Shown in pieces: positions 2,861-14,812 of a stretch of 64,000 nucleotides of DNA. The notes under the pieces are model-generated. The model was not told the DNA's origin, did not search any database, and was given only the letters and a program-made list of their open reading frames with translations. The translations under genes were made by a program, and so were the position numbers. Source of the DNA: a bacterium 0.1xD8-71 (GTDB lineage Bacteria > Bacillota > Clostridia > Lachnospirales > Lachnospiraceae); the NCBI GenBank assembly GCA_003612405.1, contig RAYR01000012.1:1-64000 (forward strand), read 5' to 3'. The number at the start of each line of letters is the position of its first letter. Position 1 is the stretch's first letter.

Positions 2861-4066
2861 ATGTCTGAGAAACGAAAAGACAATAAAGGACGAGTCTTAA
2901 AGACAGGAGAGAGCCAGAGAAAAGACCTGATTTATCAGTACCGCTATACGGATGTCCACGGAAAAAGGCAGACTATTTATTCTTCTGATTTGAAAGAACT
3001 GCGGGAAAAGGAAAAGGCAATCCAGAAGCAGCTTGATGATGGGATTGATTATGCCGCCGGAGAAGTTACCGTTATTGCCCTCTTGGAACGCTATATCAGT
3101 TTGAAACAGGGTGTACGCTACAATACCAAAGTCGGATACAATTTTGTGCTGAATCTGATTAAAAAAGAAGATTTCGGCTACCGAAAGATAAGGGATATTA
3201 AGGTGTCGGATGCCCAGCAGTGGATTATGAAGCTGCATAATGACGGTAAAGGATACAGCACGATTACAAGTGTCAGGGGTGTTATAAAGCCAGCTTTTCA
3301 AATGGCATATAATGAGGACATTATCCGCAGGAATCCATTTGATTTTAAGCTGATAGACGTTGTACCAAACGATTCGCAGAAACGTATCGCTATGACAGAG
3401 GAACAGCAGGAACTATGGATGAGTTTTATCCGTGAGGATAAAACCTACTGTAAGTATTATGATGAATTTGTCGTGCTGTTGGGAACAGGAATGCGTGTCA
3501 GTGAATTTTGTGGCTTGACAAAAAATGACCTTGATTTCCAAAATCGAAAAATCCGTGTTGACAAGCAGCTTGTCAGGGAACGGGGCGGAAAATATTATGT
3601 GGAAAAAACAAAAACAGAGTGCGGATGCCGTTTTATCCCGATGACAGAGGAAGTGTATCACAGCTTGAAGAATATCCTTGCCAACCGTCCGAAATTGAAT
3701 ACAGAAGCAATCATAGACGGTTACAGTGGTTTTCTTTTGATTGACAAAGACAATCACCAGAAAGTGGCACTACATATTGAGAACGAGATGCGGTGGGCAA
3801 TGAAAAAGTATAAGAAGTTGTATCCGGATAAACCATTGCCACACATTACGCCCCATGTATTCCGTCATACATTCTGCACCAACATGGCAAATGCAGGAAT
3901 GGACATTAAGACCTTGCAGTATGTAATGGGACATTCTGATGTAGGGGTTACACTGAATGTTTATACTCATGCCAGCTATGACCGTGCGGCGGAGCAGATG
4001 GCAAAGATTTTAGACTTCAAAGAAAAAGAAACAGATATACATGAAAAACGGAGAAAATCAGGTTGA
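2861..4066 (+). CDS. int: Tyrosine integrase, Tn916/Tn1549 type
   Basis: A 401-residue tyrosine recombinase. I chose ATG 2861 (MSEKRKDNKGR) because an AAGGAG site precedes it; a 15-codon upstream extension lacks one. Domains in order are an N-terminal arm-binding region (about 1-60), a SAM-like core-binding domain (about 70-165), and the catalytic domain. The catalytic residues visible are Arg in GTGMRVSEF, the HVFRHTF box, His in MGHSDV, and the nucleophile Tyr in NVYTH. It cuts and rejoins the element ends for integration and excision. The gene looks intact, so the right end may still be active even though the replication gene upstream is broken. Confidence 0.93.
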   Translation: MSEKRKDNKGRVLKTGESQRKDLIYQYRYTDVHGKRQTIYSSDLKELREKEKAIQKQLDDGIDYAAGEVTVIALLERYISLKQGVRYNTKVGYNFVLNLIKKEDFGYRKIRDIKVSDAQQWIMKLHNDGKGYSTITSVRGVIKPAFQMAYNEDIIRRNPFDFKLIDVVPNDSQKRIAMTEEQQELWMSFIREDKTYCKYYDEFVVLLGTGMRVSEFCGLTKNDLDFQNRKIRVDKQLVRERGGKYYVEKTKTECGCRFIPMTEEVYHSLKNILANRPKLNTEAIIDGYSGFLLIDKDNHQKVALHIENEMRWAMKKYKKLYPDKPLPHITPHVFRHTFCTNMANAGMDIKTLQYVMGHSDVGVTLNVYTHASYDRAAEQMAKILDFKEKETDIHEKRRKSG

Positions 4067-4083
4067 GAAAATACATTAATCTG

Positions 4084-4103
4084 CTACACCAATTACTACA
4101 CCA
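4084..4103. repeat. Direct repeats CTACACCA, candidate integrase arm sites
   Basis: Two CTACACCA copies (4084-4091 and 4096-4103) with a 4-base ATTA spacer lie just past the integrase stop. Integrases of this family bind direct repeats near the element end through their N-terminal domain, so these are candidate arm sites. The exact element junction is not resolvable here. It must lie between the integrase stop and the phosphatase start at 4231. Confidence 0.4.
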
Positions 4104-4230
4104 TTTGCCCGTAAATTTGCGTAGATTTATAACGAATTGCACAGATTAAGGGTAAAAAGCCAAAAATGAAAAAAGCGCCAGAAAGCTTGAAAAATCAAGG
4201 CTTGAAGGCTTATGAAGGGATATAAAAGAT

Positions 4231-4698
4231 ATGATAAAAATTTTATTCGTCTGCCACGGCAATATTTGCAGAAGCACAATGGCCCAGAGCGTTTTTGCCC
4301 ACATGGCGGCGAAGCAGGGCCTTTCCGAGCATTTTCATATTGACTCTGCGGCCACCAGCAGAGAGGAGATTGGCAATACGCCTCATTATGGCACCGTAAA
4401 TAAGTTACGTCAGGAAGGAATCCCTTTAATTCCTCACAGAGCGCGCCAGATGACCAGACAGGATTATAAAGAGTTTGATTATCTGATTGGCATGGATGAT
4501 GCCAACATCCGCAATATGGAGCGGATAGCAGGCGGGGATCCCGAGCATAAGATTTATCGTCTTTTGGAGTTTGCGGGAAGCAGCAGAGCGATTGCGGATC
4601 CCTGGTATACAGGTAATTTTGACGTCACCTATGATGATGTGATTGAGGGGTGTGAGGCTTTATTGGAAGCATTGAAAGCAAATATAATGTGGACATAA
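4231..4698 (+). CDS. Low-molecular-weight protein tyrosine phosphatase
   Basis: A 155-residue cytoplasmic phosphatase. The signature CX5R loop is VCHGNICRST near the N-terminus (Cys about 8, Arg about 14), and the general-acid Asp is in the DPWYTGNF motif near residue 120. The length is normal for the family. It removes phosphate from tyrosine, and sometimes arginine, on proteins; the target is unknown. The mobile element lies right upstream, so its native promoter may have been displaced by the insertion and expression may depend on sequence at the element end. Confidence 0.92.
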   Translation: MIKILFVCHGNICRSTMAQSVFAHMAAKQGLSEHFHIDSAATSREEIGNTPHYGTVNKLRQEGIPLIPHRARQMTRQDYKEFDYLIGMDDANIRNMERIAGGDPEHKIYRLLEFAGSSRAIADPWYTGNFDVTYDDVIEGCEALLEALKANIMWT

Positions 4699-4728
4699 AG
4701 AGGTGAAGGTAAGTCAGGGGAAGCCCGA

Positions 4729-5571
4729 TCAACAATCGGACTTCCCCTTTTCCATCCTCTTCTTGTGATGATCCCCCACAAAGGCAACAAAAGCAAGCAC
4801 CAGCAATAGAAAAACAGTCAGCACATCCCACACATCCAGGATTGGCTCGTCTATCAGTCTTGCCAGGATCAGATTGATGATGAACACAAATGGCACCGCG
4901 GCCAGAAGGGAGATGCCAAGGGTCCATAATGGCTTTGTTTTTCCCATCCGGGCAAACAGGGCGGATATCAGCCATAGAAACAGGATGGCGGGAATGGCCA
5001 TGGCCGTGCCGATGGTAAATATGGTGTGGACTTTCAGCAGGAAGCTCAGCAGATATAAATAGGGAATGATGAAAACACTGAGGGCGATCAGGCTGACGGT
5101 AATGCCGCGTTTCCCCAGAAGAATGTTGGGAAAACACAACACCCATGCCAAAGCAATCGAGCTAAGGGGAATGGGTGACCAGGTCAGGTGGCCGGCAATG
5201 GCTATGTCGCAGGTCAGGCATACGACGACTCCAATAAAACATGTCACGGAAAAAAGGATGGCAATGATTCTGTTCTTTGACAGGGTGTTTTCTTCTTTTT
5301 GTTTTAAGGCAAGTAGGTTTTCTTCTGCTTTTTTTTCATAATTTTCATACGGTTCCATTTCAATTTCCTCCCCACTCAACAATTCATTTACGGTAATATC
5401 AAGTATGGCGCATAGTTCCAGCATAATAGAGGAATCGGGCATACTTTTGCCGGTTTCCCATTTGGATACGGCTCTGTCTGTGATATTCAGTTTTTCTGCC
5501 AGCTGTGCCTGTGTCAGTTTCTGTTTTTTGCGGCATCTGGCAATAAAGTTTCCGATTGCTGTCTGATTCAT
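4729..5571 (-). CDS. XRE-family regulator with membrane domain
   Basis: A 280-residue protein with an N-terminal Cro/CI helix-turn-helix (residues 5-60, KLTQAQLAEKLNITDRAVSKWE). A linker follows, then about five hydrophobic segments from residue 95 on. I chose the start at 5571 because AAGGAGG lies 8 bases upstream, whereas an in-frame start 8 codons earlier has no such site. HTH-plus-membrane proteins are common in Clostridia, where they are thought to sense envelope stress or small molecules. The signal and targets here are unknown. The gene converges on the phosphatase gene and diverges from pstS. Confidence 0.8.
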   Translation of the reverse strand: MNQTAIGNFIARCRKKQKLTQAQLAEKLNITDRAVSKWETGKSMPDSSIMLELCAILDITVNELLSGEEIEMEPYENYEKKAEENLLALKQKEENTLSKNRIIAILFSVTCFIGVVVCLTCDIAIAGHLTWSPIPLSSIALAWVLCFPNILLGKRGITVSLIALSVFIIPYLYLLSFLLKVHTIFTIGTAMAIPAILFLWLISALFARMGKTKPLWTLGISLLAAVPFVFIINLILARLIDEPILDVWDVLTVFLLLVLAFVAFVGDHHKKRMEKGKSDC

Positions 5572-5647
5572 TGTGTTTTCCTCCTTGGGATTCATGGTAC
5601 ACCACAGGGTACTTTTTTAACACGAACTGTTGGTTGAGTTTGGTGAA

Positions 5648-5776: not shown

Positions 5777-6709
5777 ATGTATCAAAGAAAGTGGAATAAA
5801 AGTACAATGAAAAGAACCGCACTCAAAAGAACCAGACTACATCTCTTAGGCGTTATTTTTGTAATCGGTCTTTTGGCGGGAACGGGCAGTCATCGCGGCT
5901 GGCAGGAGCGGTTAGCAAAATTTTCGTCAACACAGGGGCAGCCTGCGCAATCCTCGCAGGATATTTCCATAAATGGCAAGGTTGTCATGGCAGGATCCAC
6001 CTCCATGGAGTCTTTGGCCAATGCGCTGGCGGAAGGGTTTATGAACCGGTATCCGCAGGTGACGGTGACAGCGGAGTTTACAGGTTCTTCTGCGGGGATT
6101 GAGGCGGTACTTGCAGGCCAGGCGGATATCGGTAATTCTTCCAGGCAGCTTCATCCGGCGGAACAGGCAGCAGGCGTGGTGGAGCATGTGGTGGCAATTG
6201 ATGGCATTGTGATTGTTACGAATATGGAAAATGGGGTTACGGGTCTGACGAGGGAACAGCTTTGTGGAATCTATCAGGGAACCATCAGGAACTGGCAGGA
6301 AGTGGGAGGCAGTAACGAGGCGGTGGTGGTGATCGGCCGGGAAGCGGGCAGCGGTACGAGAGAGGCTTTTGAGGCATATCTGGGGTTGGAGGATGGGTGC
6401 AGTTACGCCAATGAATTAAATTCCACGGGAGCGGTCATGGCCAGGGTATCTTCCACACCGGGAGCTGTCGGTTATGTTTCCTGGGAGGTTCTTGACGATA
6501 CGGTGTCGGTTCTTTCTTTAGAGGGAGTAATACCGACAGAGGAAACCATCCGGGACGGCAGATATGGGTTAAGCAGACCCTATGTGATGGTGACAAAGGG
6601 GGAGATAGAAGCACAGAGCAGGGCCGTGCAGGAGTTCTTTCGGTATCTGGATTCGGAGGAAAGCAGGGCGCTTCTTAAGAAGGCGGGGGTGATTGTGTCT
6701 GAAAGGTAG
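5777..6709 (+). CDS. pstS: Phosphate-binding protein PstS
   Basis: A 310-residue substrate-binding protein of the PstS family, with MAGSTSMESL, TGSSAGIEAVL, and GREAGSGTREAFEAY phosphate-loop motifs. It captures phosphate outside the membrane and hands it to PstCA. The N-terminus has basic residues and a hydrophobic segment ending LLAGTGS. In Firmicutes PstS this spot normally carries a lipobox Cys, but here it is Thr, so lipid anchoring is doubtful. ATG 5777 follows GGAACAGGG; ATG 5807 is an alternative start giving a shorter signal peptide. It heads pstSCAB and overlaps pstC. Confidence 0.9.
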   Translation: MYQRKWNKSTMKRTALKRTRLHLLGVIFVIGLLAGTGSHRGWQERLAKFSSTQGQPAQSSQDISINGKVVMAGSTSMESLANALAEGFMNRYPQVTVTAEFTGSSAGIEAVLAGQADIGNSSRQLHPAEQAAGVVEHVVAIDGIVIVTNMENGVTGLTREQLCGIYQGTIRNWQEVGGSNEAVVVIGREAGSGTREAFEAYLGLEDGCSYANELNSTGAVMARVSSTPGAVGYVSWEVLDDTVSVLSLEGVIPTEETIRDGRYGLSRPYVMVTKGEIEAQSRAVQEFFRYLDSEESRALLKKAGVIVSER

Positions 6710-7631
6710 TGAATCAGAATATCAAAGGAATCGGAGCAGCCATGCCAGGGGAGTGGAAAAGGCGGCGGAAATCCTGTTTGGTCTGTGTGGGATGTCAGCC
6801 ATTCTGGCGGTAGGTTCCATCACGCTGTATATGATTGTCAATGGCATACCAGCCGTCTTGCAGGTGGGATGGAAGGAAATTCTGTTTTCTACGGTCTGGA
6901 TGCCGACGGCAAAGGAGCCTTCTTTCGGGATTTTTTCGGTGATTCTGACTTCCATTGCGGGCACGTTTCTGGCGGTTCTCATTGGGGTTCCGCTAGCCGT
7001 TCTGACGGCGGTATTTTTGTCGGAAGTGGCACCTGCGCATCTGGCGTCCATAGTGCGTCCGGCAGTGGAACTGTTGGCGGGGATTCCGTCAGTCATCTAT
7101 GGGGTGCTGGGGATGATGGTTTTAAATCCTCTGATGTATCGTCTGGAACAGTGGATTTTTGCGGACTCGGAAACGCATCAGTTTACTGGCGGAGCCAATC
7201 TGCTCTCGGCGGCTATTGTGCTGGCGGTGATGATATTGCCCACTGTGATTACCATCAGCGAGGCGGCGATTCGGGCGGTGCCGCCGGAACTGATGGCCTC
7301 GTCTCTGGCGCTGGGAGCATCTTTTGTGCAGACGATTTTCCGGGTGACTCTGCCGGCGGCAAAATCAGGGATTCTCACGGCAGTGGTGCTGGGAATCGGC
7401 AGAGCCATGGGGGAGGCCATGGCAATCAGTCTGGTGTCCGGTAATTCGGTGAATCTGCCACTGCCTTTTATGTCGGTGCGGTTTCTGACCACTGCGATTG
7501 TCAGCGAGATGGGGTATGCGGGGGGACTGCACAGGCAGGTACTGTTTACCATCGGGCTGGTGTTGTTTGGTTTTATCATGGTGATCAATCTGGTGCTGCA
7601 TCGTATCTTAAAGGGGGAAGGGCGGCCATGA
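6693..7631 (+). CDS. pstC: Phosphate ABC permease PstC
   Basis: A 312-residue membrane protein with about six transmembrane helices and the ABC permease coupling loop in the region EAAIRAVPPELMASSLALGAS. It forms the phosphate channel with PstA. The start is uncertain: TTG 6693 follows GGGGGTGA and overlaps the end of pstS, while GTG 6753 is an alternative with poor spacing. Its stop overlaps the pstA start by four bases, consistent with translational coupling. Confidence 0.9.
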   Translation: MCLKGSESEYQRNRSSHARGVEKAAEILFGLCGMSAILAVGSITLYMIVNGIPAVLQVGWKEILFSTVWMPTAKEPSFGIFSVILTSIAGTFLAVLIGVPLAVLTAVFLSEVAPAHLASIVRPAVELLAGIPSVIYGVLGMMVLNPLMYRLEQWIFADSETHQFTGGANLLSAAIVLAVMILPTVITISEAAIRAVPPELMASSLALGASFVQTIFRVTLPAAKSGILTAVVLGIGRAMGEAMAISLVSGNSVNLPLPFMSVRFLTTAIVSEMGYAGGLHRQVLFTIGLVLFGFIMVINLVLHRILKGEGRP

Positions 7632-8470
7632 TGAGAAAGTGGAAGGACGATGTGCTTTTATGTCTGATTTATCTAGCGGCTTTTTTTACGGAGTTTCTCC
7701 TGATCGGGATTCTGGGGTATGTGTTTGTAAAAGGCTTCCCGCAGGTGAGTCTGTCCTTTCTGACCAACGTGACCAGTGTATTGCAGGGGACTGCCGGCAT
7801 AGCAGGTAATTTTGTAAATACGTTGTATATGGTAGTAATGACACTGGCAGTCGCGGTGCCGTTTGGGATCGGTGCGGCCATTTATCTGAATGAGTATGCA
7901 AGACCGGGCAGGGTAGTACGGCTGATAGAATTTACCACGGAGACTTTGGCAGGGATACCATCCATTCTTTTCGGGCTTTTTGGCATGGTGTTTTTTGGCA
8001 CCACATTGGGGCTTGGGTATTCGATACTCACAGGTGCGCTTACGCTTGCACTGATGGTATTGCCGCTGATTACAAAAAACACCCAGGAGGCGTTAAAGGC
8101 GGTGCCGGAGGCTTATCGGAGCGGCGCTTTTGGTATGGGGGCAGGGAAGTGGTATATGATCCGCACGATTCTTCTGCCGGCGGCCATGCCAGGAATTGTT
8201 ACGGGGATTCTTCTTTCAGTGGGGCGTATTCTGGGAGAGTCGGCGGCGCTTCTTTTTACGGCGGGCAGCGGTTATTTCCTGCCCAGATCTTTTGGCGGGT
8301 GGTTTCGTAAGCTGTCAGAGTCAGGCGGCACCCTTACGGTACAGTTATATCTGAGTATGTCCAAAGCGCAGTATTCAGTGGCTTTCGGGATTGCGGCGGT
8401 GTTACTTTGCATGGTACTGGGAATCAATTTCCTGGTCAGGATGCTGGCGAAGAAATGGGATGCGGTATAG
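7628..8470 (+). CDS. pstA: Phosphate ABC permease PstA
   Basis: A 280-residue permease with about six transmembrane helices. The family motif region is TQEALKAVPEAYRSGAFGMG, followed by a GESAALLFTAG segment. It pairs with PstC to make the phosphate pore. It is preceded by GGGGGAAGGGCGG and overlaps pstC by ATGA. The next gene, pstB, starts on the base after its stop. Confidence 0.91.
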   Translation: MMRKWKDDVLLCLIYLAAFFTEFLLIGILGYVFVKGFPQVSLSFLTNVTSVLQGTAGIAGNFVNTLYMVVMTLAVAVPFGIGAAIYLNEYARPGRVVRLIEFTTETLAGIPSILFGLFGMVFFGTTLGLGYSILTGALTLALMVLPLITKNTQEALKAVPEAYRSGAFGMGAGKWYMIRTILLPAAMPGIVTGILLSVGRILGESAALLFTAGSGYFLPRSFGGWFRKLSESGGTLTVQLYLSMSKAQYSVAFGIAAVLLCMVLGINFLVRMLAKKWDAV

Positions 8471-9256
8471 ATGGCAGGGGATAAGGGACAGAGGCGGATG
8501 ACACAGTGTAAGATGATGACGGAAAAATTGAATGTATATTATGGAAAAAGGCATGCCCTGAAGGATGTTGACATCAGGATCCGCAGTCATGCGGTGACGG
8601 CGCTGATCGGCCCTTCCGGATGTGGGAAGTCCACGTTCTTAAAGACCCTGAACCGCATGAATGATCTGGTGGGCAATGTAAGAATCGAAGGGCAGGTGTA
8701 TCTGGACGGGGAAGATATTTACAGTACGCGGATGGACGTTACAAGATTAAGAAAACGGGTGGGGATGGTGTTTCAACAGCCCAATCCTTTTCCTATGACC
8801 ATTTATGACAACATTGCCTATGGGCCCCGGATTCATGGGATAAAGGGGAAGGAGCAGTTAGACGGGATTGTGGAGAGAAGTCTGCGGCAGGCGGCCATCT
8901 GGGAAGAGGTCAGGGAGGGTCTTTACAAATCGGCGCTTGGACTTTCCGGCGGTCAGAAGCAGAGGCTTTGTATCGCCCGTGCCCTGGCTGTGGAGCCGGA
9001 AGTACTTTTGATGGATGAACCCACTTCGGCCCTGGATCCGGTGTCTACCTTAAAGGTGGAGGAACTGATGACTGCTTTCAAGCAGAAGTATACTATCGTC
9101 ATCGTGACCCACAACATGCAGCAGGCGGCCAGGATATCGGATGATACGGTGTTTTTCCTGGAGGGGGAGCTGGTGGAATCTGACACCACGGCCCGTCTGT
9201 TCTCCCATCCTGCCGACAGGAGAACGAGGGCCTATATCAATGGAAGGTTTGGTTAG
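8471..9256 (+). CDS. pstB: Phosphate ABC ATPase PstB
   Basis: A 261-residue ATPase that powers phosphate import. Visible motifs are Walker [10 protein letters not shown] (about residue 50), the Q-loop in [10 protein letters not shown], signature LSGGQKQRL (about 160), and Walker [15 protein letters not shown] second start at ATG 8498, just after AGAGGCGG, would remove nine residues and is possible. The usual downstream phoU is missing: the next gene is on the other strand. A PhoU-like domain is instead fused to the Na/Pi transporter about 1.2 kb on. Confidence 0.95.
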
Positions 9257-9260
9257 GATT

Positions 9261-9689
9261 TCAGGTCAGATCCGCCAGCAGGAAGTTCTCGGTTTTGAGG
9301 GCACAGTAGTGCCGGCCCCTGACAGCGGTAAATTTGAGGATGCAGTAATCAGGATCTGTGACACCCTGTTTATAATACATCACATCCTGGGGGTGCCAGA
9401 GTTCTTCCTTGATCTGGGGATCCTGCAATACTTCCATGGTGCCGGTCAGCATGACAGCCTCATATTTAAAACGGCCTTTGTTATAGAAATAGATGCTGGC
9501 CTTAGGGTTTGCGAGAAACTGTATGGCACGCAGGGAAGAGGTGTTGGTGGAATAATAGAAGCTGTCCCCTTCCATTTTGCCGGGCATGAACATGGCTTTC
9601 ATATTGGGGTATCCATCCTCATCTATTGAGGCAATAAAGGATACTTTCTGTTTCTGGATAAATCCGAATAGCTGTTCTCTGGTTTTCAT
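9261..9689 (-). CDS. Pyridoxamine-phosphate-oxidase-like flavin-binding protein
   Basis: A 142-residue protein of the split-barrel, flavin-binding PNPOx-like family (general stress protein 26 type). The pattern runs VSFIASIDEDGYPNMKAMF at the N-terminus and then a FYYSTNTSSLRA segment. Members bind FMN or F420/heme and often reduce small molecules; the substrate here is not predictable. Its start overlaps the stop of the upstream MarR gene by ATGA, so the two are cotranscribed, and MarR probably controls it. Confidence 0.8.
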   Translation of the reverse strand: MKTREQLFGFIQKQKVSFIASIDEDGYPNMKAMFMPGKMEGDSFYYSTNTSSLRAIQFLANPKASIYFYNKGRFKYEAVMLTGTMEVLQDPQIKEELWHPQDVMYYKQGVTDPDYCILKFTAVRGRHYCALKTENFLLADLT

Positions 9690-10147
9690 GTGTGATCCTC
9701 CTTTGGTTTTTTATAGGTTTGTTCTTCTTTGGTCAATGTCTTTAAGATTCTTGCAAGAAAGCTTTCAAAAGTCATTTGTTCTTCCGGGGTAAATCCCTGG
9801 TAGAACAGGGTGTTCATCTGCTGGGAAACAGTCTCGTATTTCGTTTGCAGGGACTTGGCGTAGGCGGTGAGGGAGATGATGGTCTGACGGCGGTTCCGGG
9901 GATTGGTCTGTCTTGTAAGGATACCTTTATGCACCATACCGTCCACCACTACGGAGACAGTGTTTTTGGCCAGGGAAGTCCGGACGCTGATTTCACCGAT
10001 GGTAAGAGGGTTGTCCTTCCAGAGGACAAAAAGAATCCGTCCCTGTCCGCCGCTGATTTCAATGCCGTTTTCTGCAAGCAGGCGTTCAAAAATCCGTTCC
10101 TGAAGCTGTTTGATCTGTGTGATATAGAAGCCGCCTTTTGTTTCCAT
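9686..10147 (-). CDS. MarR-family transcriptional regulator
   Basis: A 153-residue winged-helix regulator. The HTH lies at about residues 50-75 (TIGEISVRTSLAKNTVSVVVDGM), followed by the wing RQTNPRNRRQT, with flanking dimerization helices. It forms a two-gene operon with the PNPOx-like gene. A strong 13-base inverted repeat upstream (10234-10278) fits an autoregulatory operator. The inducer is unknown; MarR proteins commonly answer to phenolics or oxidants. Confidence 0.88.
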   Translation of the reverse strand: METKGGFYITQIKQLQERIFERLLAENGIEISGGQGRILFVLWKDNPLTIGEISVRTSLAKNTVSVVVDGMVHKGILTRQTNPRNRRQTIISLTAYAKSLQTKYETVSQQMNTLFYQGFTPEEQMTFESFLARILKTLTKEEQTYKKPKEDHT

Positions 10148-10233: not shown

Positions 10234-10278
10234 TTATAATAGTTCTGAACAGAATTGTTCTATATAGAACTATTATAA
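10234..10278 (-). promoter_or_regulatory. Inverted-repeat operator at the MarR promoter
   Basis: TTATAATAGTTCT (10234-10246) and AGAACTATTATAA (10266-10278) are perfect 13-base inverted repeats. Between them sits a smaller imperfect palindrome with GAACA and TGTTC ends. The left arm carries a TATAAT-like -10 on the minus strand, so protein bound here would block the MarR gene. This is the expected form of a MarR operator. Confidence 0.65.
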
Positions 10279-10314: not shown

Positions 10315-10342
10315 TTTACATAAATTTTACTTCTATTTTACA
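10315..10342 (+). promoter_or_regulatory. Pho-box-like triple repeat upstream of the Na/Pi transporter
   Basis: TTTACA (10315-10320), TTTACT (10326-10331) and TTTACA (10337-10342) recur with an exact 11-base period. Gram-positive PhoP sites are TT(A/T/C)ACA repeats with about 5-base spacers, so this fits well. A CTGATATCAG palindrome follows at 10348-10357. The array sits 80-108 bases before the transporter start and predicts induction under phosphate limitation. Confidence 0.65.
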
Positions 10343-10422
10343 AAACCCTGATATCAGCAGGGATAAATCCATGATAACTTCAAATCATAATACTAAGGTG
10401 ATATGTGGAAAAGGAGGTTATC

Positions 10423-12195
10423 ATGGATTTTTTCAGCGTACTGACGATGGTGGGCGGACTCGCGCTTTTCTTATACGGCATGCATGTGTTGGGAGAAGGT
10501 CTTTCCAAGGCAAGCGGCGGAAGGATGGAACAGATTCTGGAACGGCTGACTTCCGGCAGGCTGCGGGCAGTGTTTCTGGGTGCCGCCGTCACGGCAGTGA
10601 TCCAGTCGTCTTCCGCAACGACAGTGATGGTGGTGGGATTTGTCAATTCCGGCATCATGAAACTGTCCAGTGCCATTGGCATCATCATGGGTGCCAATAT
10701 CGGTACTACCGTTACCTCATGGCTGTTAAGTCTGAGTGGTATTGACAACGGGAATTTCTGGGTACAGCTTTTGAAACCTTCTTCTTTTTCGCCGGTTCTG
10801 GCCATTGCAGGGGTGATGACTTTATTATTTTCCAGGAAGGACGGCAGGCGGAACATAGCTACTATTCTGATAGGATTTGCGGTATTGATGTTTGGCATGG
10901 ATACCATGTCCGGGGCGGTAAAACCGCTTGCCGATGTGCCGGAGTTTGCCAATCTTTTGTTAGTCTTCAGGAATCCTTTTCTGGGGATTTTAGCAGGTGC
11001 GGTGCTGACGGCTATCCTTCAGTCTTCTTCGGCCTCGGTGGGTATTTTACAGGCTTTGTGTGCTACGGGTGCGGTTTCTTATGGGACGGCTGTGCCGATT
11101 ATCTTAGGACAGAATATCGGTACCTGTGTGACGGCGCTGTTATCTTCCGTAGGAACCTCCAAGAACGCAAGGCGGGCGGCAATTGTACACTTGTATTTTA
11201 ATCTGATTGGTACGGCAGCGTTTATGGCAGTATTTTATGGGCTGCATCAAACGATTGGTTTTTCTTTCATCAATCAGGCGGCACAGCCCTATGGGATTGC
11301 GATTGCGCACAGTGTCTTTAATATCTTTGCCACCTGTCTGCTCCTGCCTTTCTCAGATGTGCTGGAGAAGCTGGCCTACCTTACCATCAAGGAAGATGCC
11401 GCAGAACATGCCATAATGCGGTATGTGGAGGAAGATATCAGGACATTGGACAGTCGTTTTATGAACAATCCGGCTTTGGCCATGGAACAGTGCCGGAAGG
11501 TGACGGCACATATGGCGGATACGGCCAGGGAGGCCTGTGGGCGGGCTGTCGGGCTTTTGTACCATTATACGGAGGAAGAGGTGGAGAGAGTCCGGCAGAT
11601 GGAAGAAGATGTGGACCGCTATGAGGATGTGCTGGGCACCTATCTGCTTCGGCTAAGCGGCCGGGAACTGGCGGAGCGGGACAGCCGGACACTCACCTTG
11701 TATCTGCACAGCATCGGGGATCTGGAGCGGATTTCAGACCATGCAGTGAGCATTGCCCAGGCATACCGGGAAATGGCGGATAAGAAGATGGCCTTTTCCA
11801 ATAAGGCCCAGGAAGAACTTGCCGTGTTTACCCGGGCAGTGGAACGGATCCTGACATTGTCCCTGGATGTTTTTGTCAGGGAGGACGGCGCTTTTGTCTA
11901 TGAGGTGGAAGCCTTGCAGTCTTTGGTGGACAGGCTGGCGGCAGAAGTCAGGAAACGGCATATTAAACGGCTCAGAAAGGGAAAGTGCACGATAGAACTG
12001 GGATTCCTTCTGTCCGATATTGTGACGGCCTACGAGCGGATTACGGCGCATTGTGTCCATATTGCGGTGCGTATGGTACAGGTGCAGGAGGATTCTCTGG
12101 AAATGCACGGATACAGCGATGAACTGGAAGAGCAGGACAGGGAGAGAATCCGATTGCTGTATGAGGGGCTGGTGCAGGAATTTCTGCTGCCTTAG
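10423..12195 (+). CDS. Na/Pi cotransporter with C-terminal PhoU-like domain
   Basis: A 590-residue protein. The start is ATG 10423, since AAGGAGG lies 5 bases upstream; a GTG six codons earlier is less likely. The first 330 residues hold about eight or nine transmembrane segments with the duplicated QSSSA motif of the NptA/SLC34 family (AVIQSSSATTVM and AILQSSSASVGI). From about residue 340 the chain is soluble and helical, with PhoU-like repeats. It imports phosphate with sodium. The fused PhoU domain could couple transport to signalling, and no separate phoU was found in the window. Confidence 0.9.
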   Translation: MDFFSVLTMVGGLALFLYGMHVLGEGLSKASGGRMEQILERLTSGRLRAVFLGAAVTAVIQSSSATTVMVVGFVNSGIMKLSSAIGIIMGANIGTTVTSWLLSLSGIDNGNFWVQLLKPSSFSPVLAIAGVMTLLFSRKDGRRNIATILIGFAVLMFGMDTMSGAVKPLADVPEFANLLLVFRNPFLGILAGAVLTAILQSSSASVGILQALCATGAVSYGTAVPIILGQNIGTCVTALLSSVGTSKNARRAAIVHLYFNLIGTAAFMAVFYGLHQTIGFSFINQAAQPYGIAIAHSVFNIFATCLLLPFSDVLEKLAYLTIKEDAAEHAIMRYVEEDIRTLDSRFMNNPALAMEQCRKVTAHMADTAREACGRAVGLLYHYTEEEVERVRQMEEDVDRYEDVLGTYLLRLSGRELAERDSRTLTLYLHSIGDLERISDHAVSIAQAYREMADKKMAFSNKAQEELAVFTRAVERILTLSLDVFVREDGAFVYEVEALQSLVDRLAAEVRKRHIKRLRKGKCTIELGFLLSDIVTAYERITAHCVHIAVRMVQVQEDSLEMHGYSDELEEQDRERIRLLYEGLVQEFLLP

Positions 12196-12309: not shown

Positions 12310-12717
12310 ATGAAGATTGCAGTTACTTATGAAGATGGCAATGTATTTCCCCATTTTGGACGCACACAGCAGTTTAAGGTTTATGAGATTGAGGCGGGAA
12401 AGGTTACGGATGCGCAGGTGATGAGTACAGACGGAAACGGTCACGGTGCTTTGGCAGGGCTGCTTTCCGGGTGGGGTGTGACGAAGCTGATCTGCGGCGG
12501 CATCGGTGCAGGGGCACAGACTGCTCTGATGGAGGCGGGGATTCAGTTCTACGGCGGTGTGGCCGGCAATGCGGACGAGGCGGTGGAGGCCCTGCTTTCG
12601 GGAACACTTTCCTATAATCCCGAGGTGCATTGTGATCATCATGGACATGATCATCAGGGAGGAGATCATCTTTGCGGTCATGACAGGCATGGCTGTCCCG
12701 GCAGCGAAAAGTTCTGA
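12310..12717 (+). CDS. NifX/NifB-type metal-cluster-binding protein with His-rich tail
   Basis: A 135-residue protein of the dinitrogenase iron-molybdenum cofactor (NifX/NafY/NifB C-terminal) family. Visible features are MKIAVTYEDGNVFPHFGRTQQF, the GVTKLICGGIGAGAQ stretch, and an acidic-to-histidine tail with many His and three Cys (HCDHHGHDHQ and on). Nitrogenase genes are not nearby. Stand-alone members in Clostridia are thought to bind or chaperone metal clusters, and the tail suggests metal binding. ATG 12310 was chosen; TTG 12301 is closer to the AAAGGAG site, so the start is uncertain. Confidence 0.8.
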   Translation: MKIAVTYEDGNVFPHFGRTQQFKVYEIEAGKVTDAQVMSTDGNGHGALAGLLSGWGVTKLICGGIGAGAQTALMEAGIQFYGGVAGNADEAVEALLSGTLSYNPEVHCDHHGHDHQGGDHLCGHDRHGCPGSEKF

Positions 12718-12775: not shown

Positions 12776-13459
12776 ATGGGTATGATTTATATTGTGGAGG
12801 ACGATCAGAATATCAGTGAGATTGAGAGCTTTTCCCTGCGAAACAGTGGCTATGAGACGGCGGTATTCGAGACGGCCAAGGATTTCTATACAGCGCTGAA
12901 AGGGCAGCTGCCAAGTCTGATTCTGTTGGATGTGATGCTGCCGGACGAGGACGGTCTTCGTATTGTGGAGAAACTGAGAAAAGATCCCCTGACGCAGGCA
13001 ATTCCTGTTATTATGGTGACAGCCAAAAGCACGGAGATGGATAAGGTGAAGGGGCTGGATCTGGGTGCGGATGACTACCTGACGAAGCCTTTTGGTGTGA
13101 TGGAACTGATTTCCCGGGTGAAAGCCCTGCTTCGCAGAAGCGGAAAGGACAGGGAGGACAGGCGCCTGGTTATTGGAAAGCTGCTTTTGGATGATGAGAG
13201 GCATGCGGTGTATGTGGAGGACAGGCAGTGTGAGCTTACCCATAAGGAGTATGAACTTTTGAAGATGCTTATGTTCCGGGCAGGTATTGTGACAGGCAGG
13301 GAGGAAATTCTTGCGCAGGTGTGGGGCACGGATTTTCAGGGGGAATCCAGAACGCTGGATATGCATATCAAGACGCTCAGACAGAAGCTGGGCGAGTCCG
13401 GAGGCATGATCAGAACAGTCCGAAATGTAGGGTATATTCTGGATCAGACGGCACAATAA
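12776..13459 (+). CDS. OmpR/PhoB-family response regulator
   Basis: A 227-residue regulator with a receiver domain (residues 1-120; phosphoacceptor Asp in LILLDVMLPDEDG, Lys in DYLTKPF) and an OmpR winged-helix DNA-binding domain (about 130-225, ending TVRNVGYIL). It forms a pair with the kinase 33 bases downstream. The location among phosphate transport genes and the Pho-box-like repeat upstream of the Na/Pi transporter suggest a PhoB/PhoP role, but this is inferred from context. ATG 12776 fits the AGAGAGG site best; ATG 12782 is two codons later. Confidence 0.9.
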   Translation: MGMIYIVEDDQNISEIESFSLRNSGYETAVFETAKDFYTALKGQLPSLILLDVMLPDEDGLRIVEKLRKDPLTQAIPVIMVTAKSTEMDKVKGLDLGADDYLTKPFGVMELISRVKALLRRSGKDREDRRLVIGKLLLDDERHAVYVEDRQCELTHKEYELLKMLMFRAGIVTGREEILAQVWGTDFQGESRTLDMHIKTLRQKLGESGGMIRTVRNVGYILDQTAQ

Positions 13460-13492: not shown

Positions 13493-14812
13493 GTGAAGAG
13501 AAAGATCAACAGACAACTGATAGGAATTTCTTTTGTGGCAGTCGTTATTACTTTGCTTCTGATGACGGCTGCTTTTTATCGTATTTTCAAGGCACAGGTA
13601 ATGGATGATCTGCAAATTTATGCCCGTGTGATTTCCGGGAGTGATATTCTGGACAGGGTATGGCAGGAGGCATCCGGTGATGCTTCCCTTCTGGTACGCA
13701 CCACGGTGATCGCACCGGATGGAAAAGTACTCTATGATTCCAATGCCAATCCGGGACAGATGGATAATCATCTGGAACGGCCGGAGATACGGGAGGCTTT
13801 TGAATACGGACAAGGACAGTCCATCCGGCAGTCTGCGACGATGAAGAAGAGCACTTTTTATTATACGCTGCGGCTGGAGGATGGTAACGTGCTTCGGGTG
13901 TCCAGGGAAGCCCACAGTATCTGGAGTATTCTGTACCGTTCCATGCCGGTGCTGGTGATTGCGCTCTGTGCGCTTTTGCTCCTGTGCATGGGGTTGTCCC
14001 ATTATCTGACAAAGTCCCTTGTGAAGCCCATTGAGCATATGGTGGCAGATATCAGTCATATTGAGGAAGATAAAGTGTATGAAGAGCTTCTGCCATTTGC
14101 CAGAACCATCCGCAGTCAGCATGAGGAGATACTTGGAAATGCCAGTATGCGTCAGGAATTTACGGCCAATGTATCCCATGAGCTGAAGACGCCGCTGGCG
14201 GCAATCTCCGGGTATTCGGAACTGATTGAAAATGGTATGGCATCGGGGGAAGATGTGGTGCGCTTTGCGGCCGGAATCCGGCAGAGTGCCGGCAGACTGC
14301 TGACTCTGATCAATGATACCATCAGGCTTTCGGAGCTGGATGCTTCCACCGGCGAGGTTATCTTTGAGGAGATTGATCTGTATGAGATGGCGAAGGACAG
14401 TGTGGAGATGCTGCAGATTCGGGCCGAGGAGAGAGACGTCAGCCTGGCTTTGGAAGGGAGCAGTTGCCGTATCCTTGGGGACAGGCAGATGATCGAGGAG
14501 CTGATTTATAATCTCTGTGACAACGCCATGAGTTACAATGTGGCGAAAGGAAGGGTTTTGGTCAGCGTGAAAGCAGATGATACAACAGTGGTGTTATCCG
14601 TGGAAGATACGGGAATCGGGATTCCGAAGGAGCATCAGGAACGGATATTTGAGCGTTTCTACCGGGTGGATAAGAGCCGTTCCAAATCCACCGGGGGCAC
14701 GGGGCTTGGACTTGCCATTGTCAAGCATATTGTGGCAGTGCACCAGGCTGAGATATTACTGATCAGTGAAGAAAACCGAGGCACGAAAGTAACAATCACT
14801 TTTGCGATTTGA
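13493..14812 (+). CDS. PhoR-like sensor histidine kinase
   Basis: A 439-residue membrane kinase with a GTG start four bases after GGAAGGAG. It has a first transmembrane segment (about 8-28), an extracytoplasmic sensor region (about 29-148), and a second segment (about 150-172). Next come the HisKA box FTANVSHELKTPLAA (phospho-His about 228) and a HATPase domain with NLCDNAM (N box), DTGIGIP (G1) and GGTGLGLAIVKH (G2). It phosphorylates the adjacent OmpR-type regulator. The phosphate-gene neighbourhood suggests it is PhoR; the sequence does not show the signal directly. Confidence 0.9.
   Translation: MKRKINRQLIGISFVAVVITLLLMTAAFYRIFKAQVMDDLQIYARVISGSDILDRVWQEASGDASLLVRTTVIAPDGKVLYDSNANPGQMDNHLERPEIREAFEYGQGQSIRQSATMKKSTFYYTLRLEDGNVLRVSREAHSIWSILYRSMPVLVIALCALLLLCMGLSHYLTKSLVKPIEHMVADISHIEEDKVYEELLPFARTIRSQHEEILGNASMRQEFTANVSHELKTPLAAISGYSELIENGMASGEDVVRFAAGIRQSAGRLLTLINDTIRLSELDASTGEVIFEEIDLYEMAKDSVEMLQIRAEERDVSLALEGSSCRILGDRQMIEELIYNLCDNAMSYNVAKGRVLVSVKADDTTVVLSVEDTGIGIPKEHQERIFERFYRVDKSRSKSTGGTGLGLAIVKHIVAVHQAEILLISEENRGTKVTITFAI

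Follow-up and report, generated by a model that had tools for sequence, protein, structure and literature searches.

Three TTTACA/T hexamers, set one behind the other upstream of a Na/Pi transporter gene, raise the question whether this locus carries a Pho box and, if so, which regulator binds it. The sequence analyzed here, referred to as the window, is the complete stretch of 64,000 nucleotides from the Lachnospiraceae bacterium 0.1xD8-71. In its part on the subject, PMC4415409 describes the PHO box as a pair of 11-nucleotide direct repeats, occupied head to tail, with a consensus that depends on the species. A preliminary description of the window had likened the hexamers to PhoP-type repeats, had noted a PhoB/PhoR-like pair nearby and, seeing no comparable array before pstS, had suggested that the two uptake systems may differ in control.

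The repeat array and the genes around it

The array TTTACATAAATTTTACTTCTATTTTACA (10315-10342, + strand) consists of TTTACA, TTTACT and TTTACA starting at 10315, 10326 and 10337, i.e., of direct repeats in one orientation at exact 11-base steps, as initially described. Its exact pattern matches once in the 4.1-Mb genome to which the window belongs; the pattern read backwards, which served as control, has no match there. Allowing up to three mismatches, two overlapping matches, one of them exact, were found in the window, while shuffled windows gave a mean of 0.16 (sd 0.42, largest 2). Over the whole genome such imperfect arrays were not enriched, with 69 matches versus 98 for the backward control. 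Weak arrays thus carry no meaning; what sets the exact array apart is where it lies and how well it is conserved. Two-unit arrays occurred 65 times (control 60) and did not define a regulon. In a profile search based on 26 arrays, the window's included, the array site was recovered at an E-value of 4e-8, followed by a next-best match at 0.12. The reading frames beside five of the next-best matches had no clear phosphate role; one such match, on contig C19, lies directly behind the kinase of a second pst operon. Across the genome, one strong array site was found, plus a weak pair before pstS of this second operon.

The gene downstream of the array is indeed of the NptA type, its product exceeding the cut-offs of PF02690, TIGR00704 and, for the PhoU domain, PF01895. 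The proposed PhoB/PhoR-like pair was likewise recovered, downstream of the transporter gene (Table 1). For the response regulator (RR), the best of 90 matched NCBIfam models was TIGR02154 (PhoB) with 221.8 bits, below the curated cut-off of 296.2. The histidine kinase (HK) scored best with NF046044 (PnpS; 241.4 bits, below the cut-off of 400) and reached 213.3 bits with TIGR02966 (PhoR), below the cut-off of 334.2. Positions 10235-10277, which separate the MarR-family gene from the array, include a perfect 12-base inverted repeat, TATAATAGTTCT ... AGAACTATTATA, likely to be a MarR operator.

Table 1 Features of the window around the array.
Feature	Position	Strand	Support
pstSCAB operon, no recognisable array before pstS	5777..9256	+	
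PNPOx-type oxidoreductase gene, at the place of phoU in many relatives	9261..9689	-	PF01243; gene orders
MarR-family regulator gene, adjoining the PNPOx-type gene	9686..10147	-	PF01047; gene orders
Array unit 1, TTTACA	10315..10320	+	Hexamer bases 2-5 identical in 20/20 NaPi-first rows
Array unit 2, TTTACT	10326..10331	+	TTTAC in 20/20 NaPi-first and 7/7 RR-first rows
Array unit 3, TTTACA	10337..10342	+	TTTACA in 20/20 NaPi-first and 7/7 RR-first rows
Slot 4, CTGATA, degenerate fourth unit and/or -35 region	10348..10353	+	Kept as nTGATA/nTGGTA
Conserved block GGATAAATCCATGATAACTTCAAATCATA	10361..10389	+	Mean information 1.67-1.78 bits vs 0.22 upstream of array
Candidate -10 box GATAAA	10362-10367	+	Inside block 10361-10389; offset profile of -10 matches
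Candidate -10 box GATAAC (GATAAT in most relatives)	10373-10378	+	11 bases from GATAAA box
NptA-type Na/Pi transporter (NaPi), C-terminal PhoU domain	10423..12195	+	PF02690 6.9e-65, PF01895 1.1e-26
Small NifX-like protein (dinitrogenase iron-molybdenum cofactor domain)	12310..12717	+	PF02579 1.8e-17
OmpR/PhoB-type response regulator (RR), proposed array ligand	12776..13459	+	PF00072, PF00486
Histidine kinase (HK) of the pair	13493..14812	+	HisKA, HATPase_c

Conservation of the array at the operon start

Among 77 genomes of the genus, the exact array pattern was found 22 times in 19 genomes, and 18 of these matches lie directly before the transporter or the RR gene; of the other four, G020 contributes two, which overlap, and G041 and G045 one apiece. 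Since the backward control gave 20 matches, the evidence resides in the place of the matches and not in their count, and raw array counts, in the genome as in the genus, were dropped as an argument. In G020, four TTTACT units at 11-base steps (L003/L020; contig C16, 9346-9384) lie beside a transporter paralogue, on the other strand.

The array precedes 20 of 21 transporter orthologues (at least 66% identity) with scores of 17 or 18 out of 18; that of G045 is cut by the contig end. The orthologue of G056 has no array, and within 14 kb around that gene we found no pst gene and only distant relatives of the regulator and the kinase. No array was found upstream of an unlinked transporter paralogue in the window's own genome (contig C35). 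Seven genomes carry a kinase orthologue (64-69% identity) and lack a close transporter orthologue. In all seven, the array sits directly between phoU and the RR gene, scoring 18 in G065, G066 and G072, 17 in G067, G068 and G069 and 16 in G064. This placement shows that the array tracks the start of the regulator operon independently of the transporter. Retained upstream of orthologues of phosphate or regulator genes, with an 11-base period on one strand and no counterpart at the unlinked paralogue, the array bears out the suggested likeness to PhoP-type repeats.

The closest relative, G006, whose transporter is 93% identical, and G076 both keep the array at a locus from which the RR-HK pair is missing. 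Searching for the kinase gave no match in G006 at an E-value of 1e-60 or better and only a distant match in G076. Retention of the array without the pair in these two genomes counts against the linked RR as its sole ligand. At the G006 locus (L105, 8251-8413), the pair is cleanly lost, with array, transporter and NifX-like gene retained.

A wider survey covered 80 named loci, mostly from Lachnospiraceae, a score of at least 11 of 12 being taken as an array pair. Pairs with a period of 11 on the coding strand were present at 56 loci, compared with 0-12 loci for other periods and 5 for the other strand. Anchored on these 56 loci, a further unit was found at offset 33 in 35 and the slot at offset 22 matched in 11, indicating slots 1, 2 and 4 as the usual set in the wider family, versus slots 1, 2 and 3 for the lineage of the window. 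At 33 of the 35 loci with the offset-33 unit, a -10-like box (at least four matches) starts at offset 48. With the unit relaxed to TTWACW, 58 loci had an array and 22 had none; an RR gene lies downstream in 46 of the former and 11 of the latter. At nine of these 11 array-less RR loci, a co-directional pstB or phoU lies 29-130 bases before the gene, and a separate promoter may therefore be missing; the corresponding gaps at array-bearing loci measure 119-461 bases. No RR gene was found within 4.5 kb downstream at 23 of the 80 loci, some of which stop at a contig end, and 12 of the 23 still carry an array.

Promoter anatomy and the pst operons

In the 20 rows in which the transporter gene follows the array (NaPi-first), TTTAC is invariant in units 2 and 3 and varies in unit 1 only at the first base. 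The hexamer columns hold 1.7-2.0 bits of information each, versus 0.22 bits per column over the 40 bases upstream. A fourth slot, absent from the preliminary description, is conserved as well: its second base is T in 19 of 20 rows, its third G and its fifth T in all 20, mostly reading nTGATA or nTGGTA. Boxes resembling a -10 element are kept at a fixed distance from the array, and the window offers two candidates; the downstream one, if used, would place slot 4 near the -35 region. In the seven RR-first promoters, the best -10-like match is at offset 60-62.

Downstream of slot 4, a block of 29 bases is nearly fixed over the 20 NaPi-first rows; the seven RR-first rows do not show this. Its core occurs once in the window's own genome, and its 21 matches in the genus are spread over 20 of the 77 genomes, with 16 of the 21 at the nptA promoter by coordinates; the block was therefore rejected as a regulon-wide operator. 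The right arm of an inverted repeat within the block, ATGAT/ATCAT, is not kept among relatives. The block holds GATAA repeats 11 bases apart and seems conserved beyond a promoter's needs.

Over 1.08 kb upstream of pstS (5777), the best three-unit score on the coding strand was 13 of 18, in agreement with the earlier failure to see a comparable array there. G006, G058 and G044, members of the window's lineage for which the whole locus was examined, have no array before pstS either. The proposed difference between the two uptake systems thus holds, as far as the array is concerned, within the window's lineage. It does not extend to several relatives: five loci from less closely related members of the genus (L108, L109, L110, L113 and L279) do have an array before pstS, and TGATA occupies slot 4 in five arrays. 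To judge from these sequences, the absence of a pstS array is lineage-specific and points to a change inside the genus. Two uptake systems whose operators are of one type in relatives have parted ways in a single lineage. In G000, G044 and G058, the PNPOx and MarR genes occupy the place held by phoU in many relatives; G006 has the PNPOx gene at this place and gave no MarR match. Before pstS, the stretch AACACGAACTGTTGGTTGAGTT (5619-5640) is retained in all four genomes aligned from the window's lineage; it might serve some other kind of pst control.

The second pst operon, pstSCAB-phoU-RR-HK, is located on contig C19 (L102, 6056-12382), with a resolvase-like gene close by (3708-5393). Its pstS promoter contains the weak pair TTTACA-n5-TTGACA, 103 bases before the start. 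The RR encoded there has a PhoB score of 227.5 bits and shares 48% identity with that of the window.

Proposed regulator and comparison with known systems

We consider it very probable that the array is a Pho-box-type operator of the linked OmpR/PhoB-type RR and drives nptA (with its PhoU fusion), the nifX-like gene, RR and HK under autoregulation; from its sequence features we strongly infer that the name Pho box applies. The linked RR is favored as ligand because arrays stand before the RR gene where the transporter is absent, and because its recognition helix varies hardly more than the array: ESRTLDMHIK[TS]LRQKL is kept in the window's RR and at the first 16 loci listed. In a deep RR clade with the helix ETRTVDVH[IV]R, TTAACW units were found in 10 of 15 arrays and outside this clade in 0 of 23; by helix type, they occur in 0 of 19 K-type and 10 of 19 R-type arrays. 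Helix-operator covariation was nevertheless rejected as an independent test, since the tree shows one deep clade and hence a single comparison, and the p-value was not used.

In the proposed mechanism, the phosphorylated RR, itself a product of the operon, would bind the three TTTACW units head to tail and probably also, weakly, slot 4 near the expected -35 region. Bound RR would then recruit RNA polymerase to one of the two -10 boxes just downstream, switching on the operon in a positive autoregulatory loop. Scarcity of phosphate is the presumed signal, which would lead to induction of Na+-driven phosphate uptake, and the PhoU domain fused to the transporter may report this uptake back to the kinase. 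Such a transporter-kinase loop is plausible here, since the NptA part of PMC13170248 reports that in S. aureus the PhoU domain of NptA modulates PhoPR; nptA expression is described there as PhoPR-dependent. Counted against the linked RR are the scores of RR and HK below the curated PhoB, PnpS and PhoR cut-offs, the similar score of the second PhoB-like RR on C19, the 22 of 80 loci without an array and the 12 of 23 loci with an array and no RR. A farther-reaching version is tentative and, in our estimate, rather unlikely: in the window's lineage, the linked pair would have shrunk to a private, nearly one-site regulon, in which the PhoU-fused transporter senses and reports phosphate in place of the free PhoU of relatives and drives only its own operon, while pstSCAB, having lost its array, would have escaped to other control with the MarR/oxidoreductase pair inserted between.

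Among the alternatives, binding mainly by the PhoB-like RR of the C19 operon appears improbable. It would account for the arrays that lack a linked pair in G006 and G076, the latter having a C19-like kinase match, and the two regulators are alike in PhoB score, in overall sequence and in recognition helix (ETRTVDMHIRTLRVKL). However, G006 retains the array with no kinase match at 1e-60 or better, the C19-like kinase is absent at this threshold from most array-bearing genomes, the C19 pstS promoter itself offers only TTTACA-n5-TTGACA, and arrays precede the linked RR where the transporter is missing. An OmpR-type operator answering to a signal other than phosphate, e.g., Na+, pH or, given the NifX-like gene in the operon of the window's lineage, a metal, would fit the sub-threshold RR and HK scores; yet the linked genes are pstSCAB, phoU and a Na/Pi transporter carrying a PhoU domain, arrays also precede pstS in several relatives, and PhoB is the best model for the RR, which makes this reading highly improbable. 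That the array represents chance AT-rich repeats or a functionless relic, already disfavored, we regard as next to negligible: imperfect arrays are indeed no commoner than the control and exact ones in the genus hardly so, but 18 of the 22 exact matches fall at one locus, the TTTAC columns are nearly constant over 20 orthologues beside a 0.22-bit flank, and neither other periods nor the other strand are enriched.

The proposed operator shares with the PHO box of the PhoB/PhoP regulons of E. coli and B. subtilis its 11-base direct repeats before phosphate genes and the regulator pair. In B. subtilis, the units are TTAACA-like with spacers of about 5 bases. The window differs from these PHO boxes in its unit TTTACW, its four slots and, within its lineage, TGATA in slot 4, and the wider family in its degenerate slot 3. 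PhoP of Clostridium acetobutylicum has reportedly been studied; our literature search, directed at Pho boxes of clostridia or Lachnospiraceae and at the B. subtilis consensus, returned nothing on point. The array supplies a concrete candidate Pho-box consensus for Lachnospiraceae, common gut bacteria for which this search found no described phosphate operator.

As in the account of S. aureus NptA given in that part of PMC13170248, a transporter fused to a PhoU domain would be tied in its expression to a PhoPR-type pair; in the window, nptA directly precedes the genes of this pair, is read in their direction and probably forms an operon with them. For Streptococcus pneumoniae, the portion of PMC4913102 concerned with PnpR/PnpS places this pair upstream of pst1 and describes two pst systems in the genome. 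The window's genome resembles it in having a regulator pair beside a pst operon and two pst systems, and PnpS is the best model for the window's HK; in contrast, the window's pair lies downstream of pst and the NptA gene, and its kinase scores below the PnpS cut-off. Set beside these systems, the array is a well-preserved case of a switch of known type, with some rewiring particular to the lineage.
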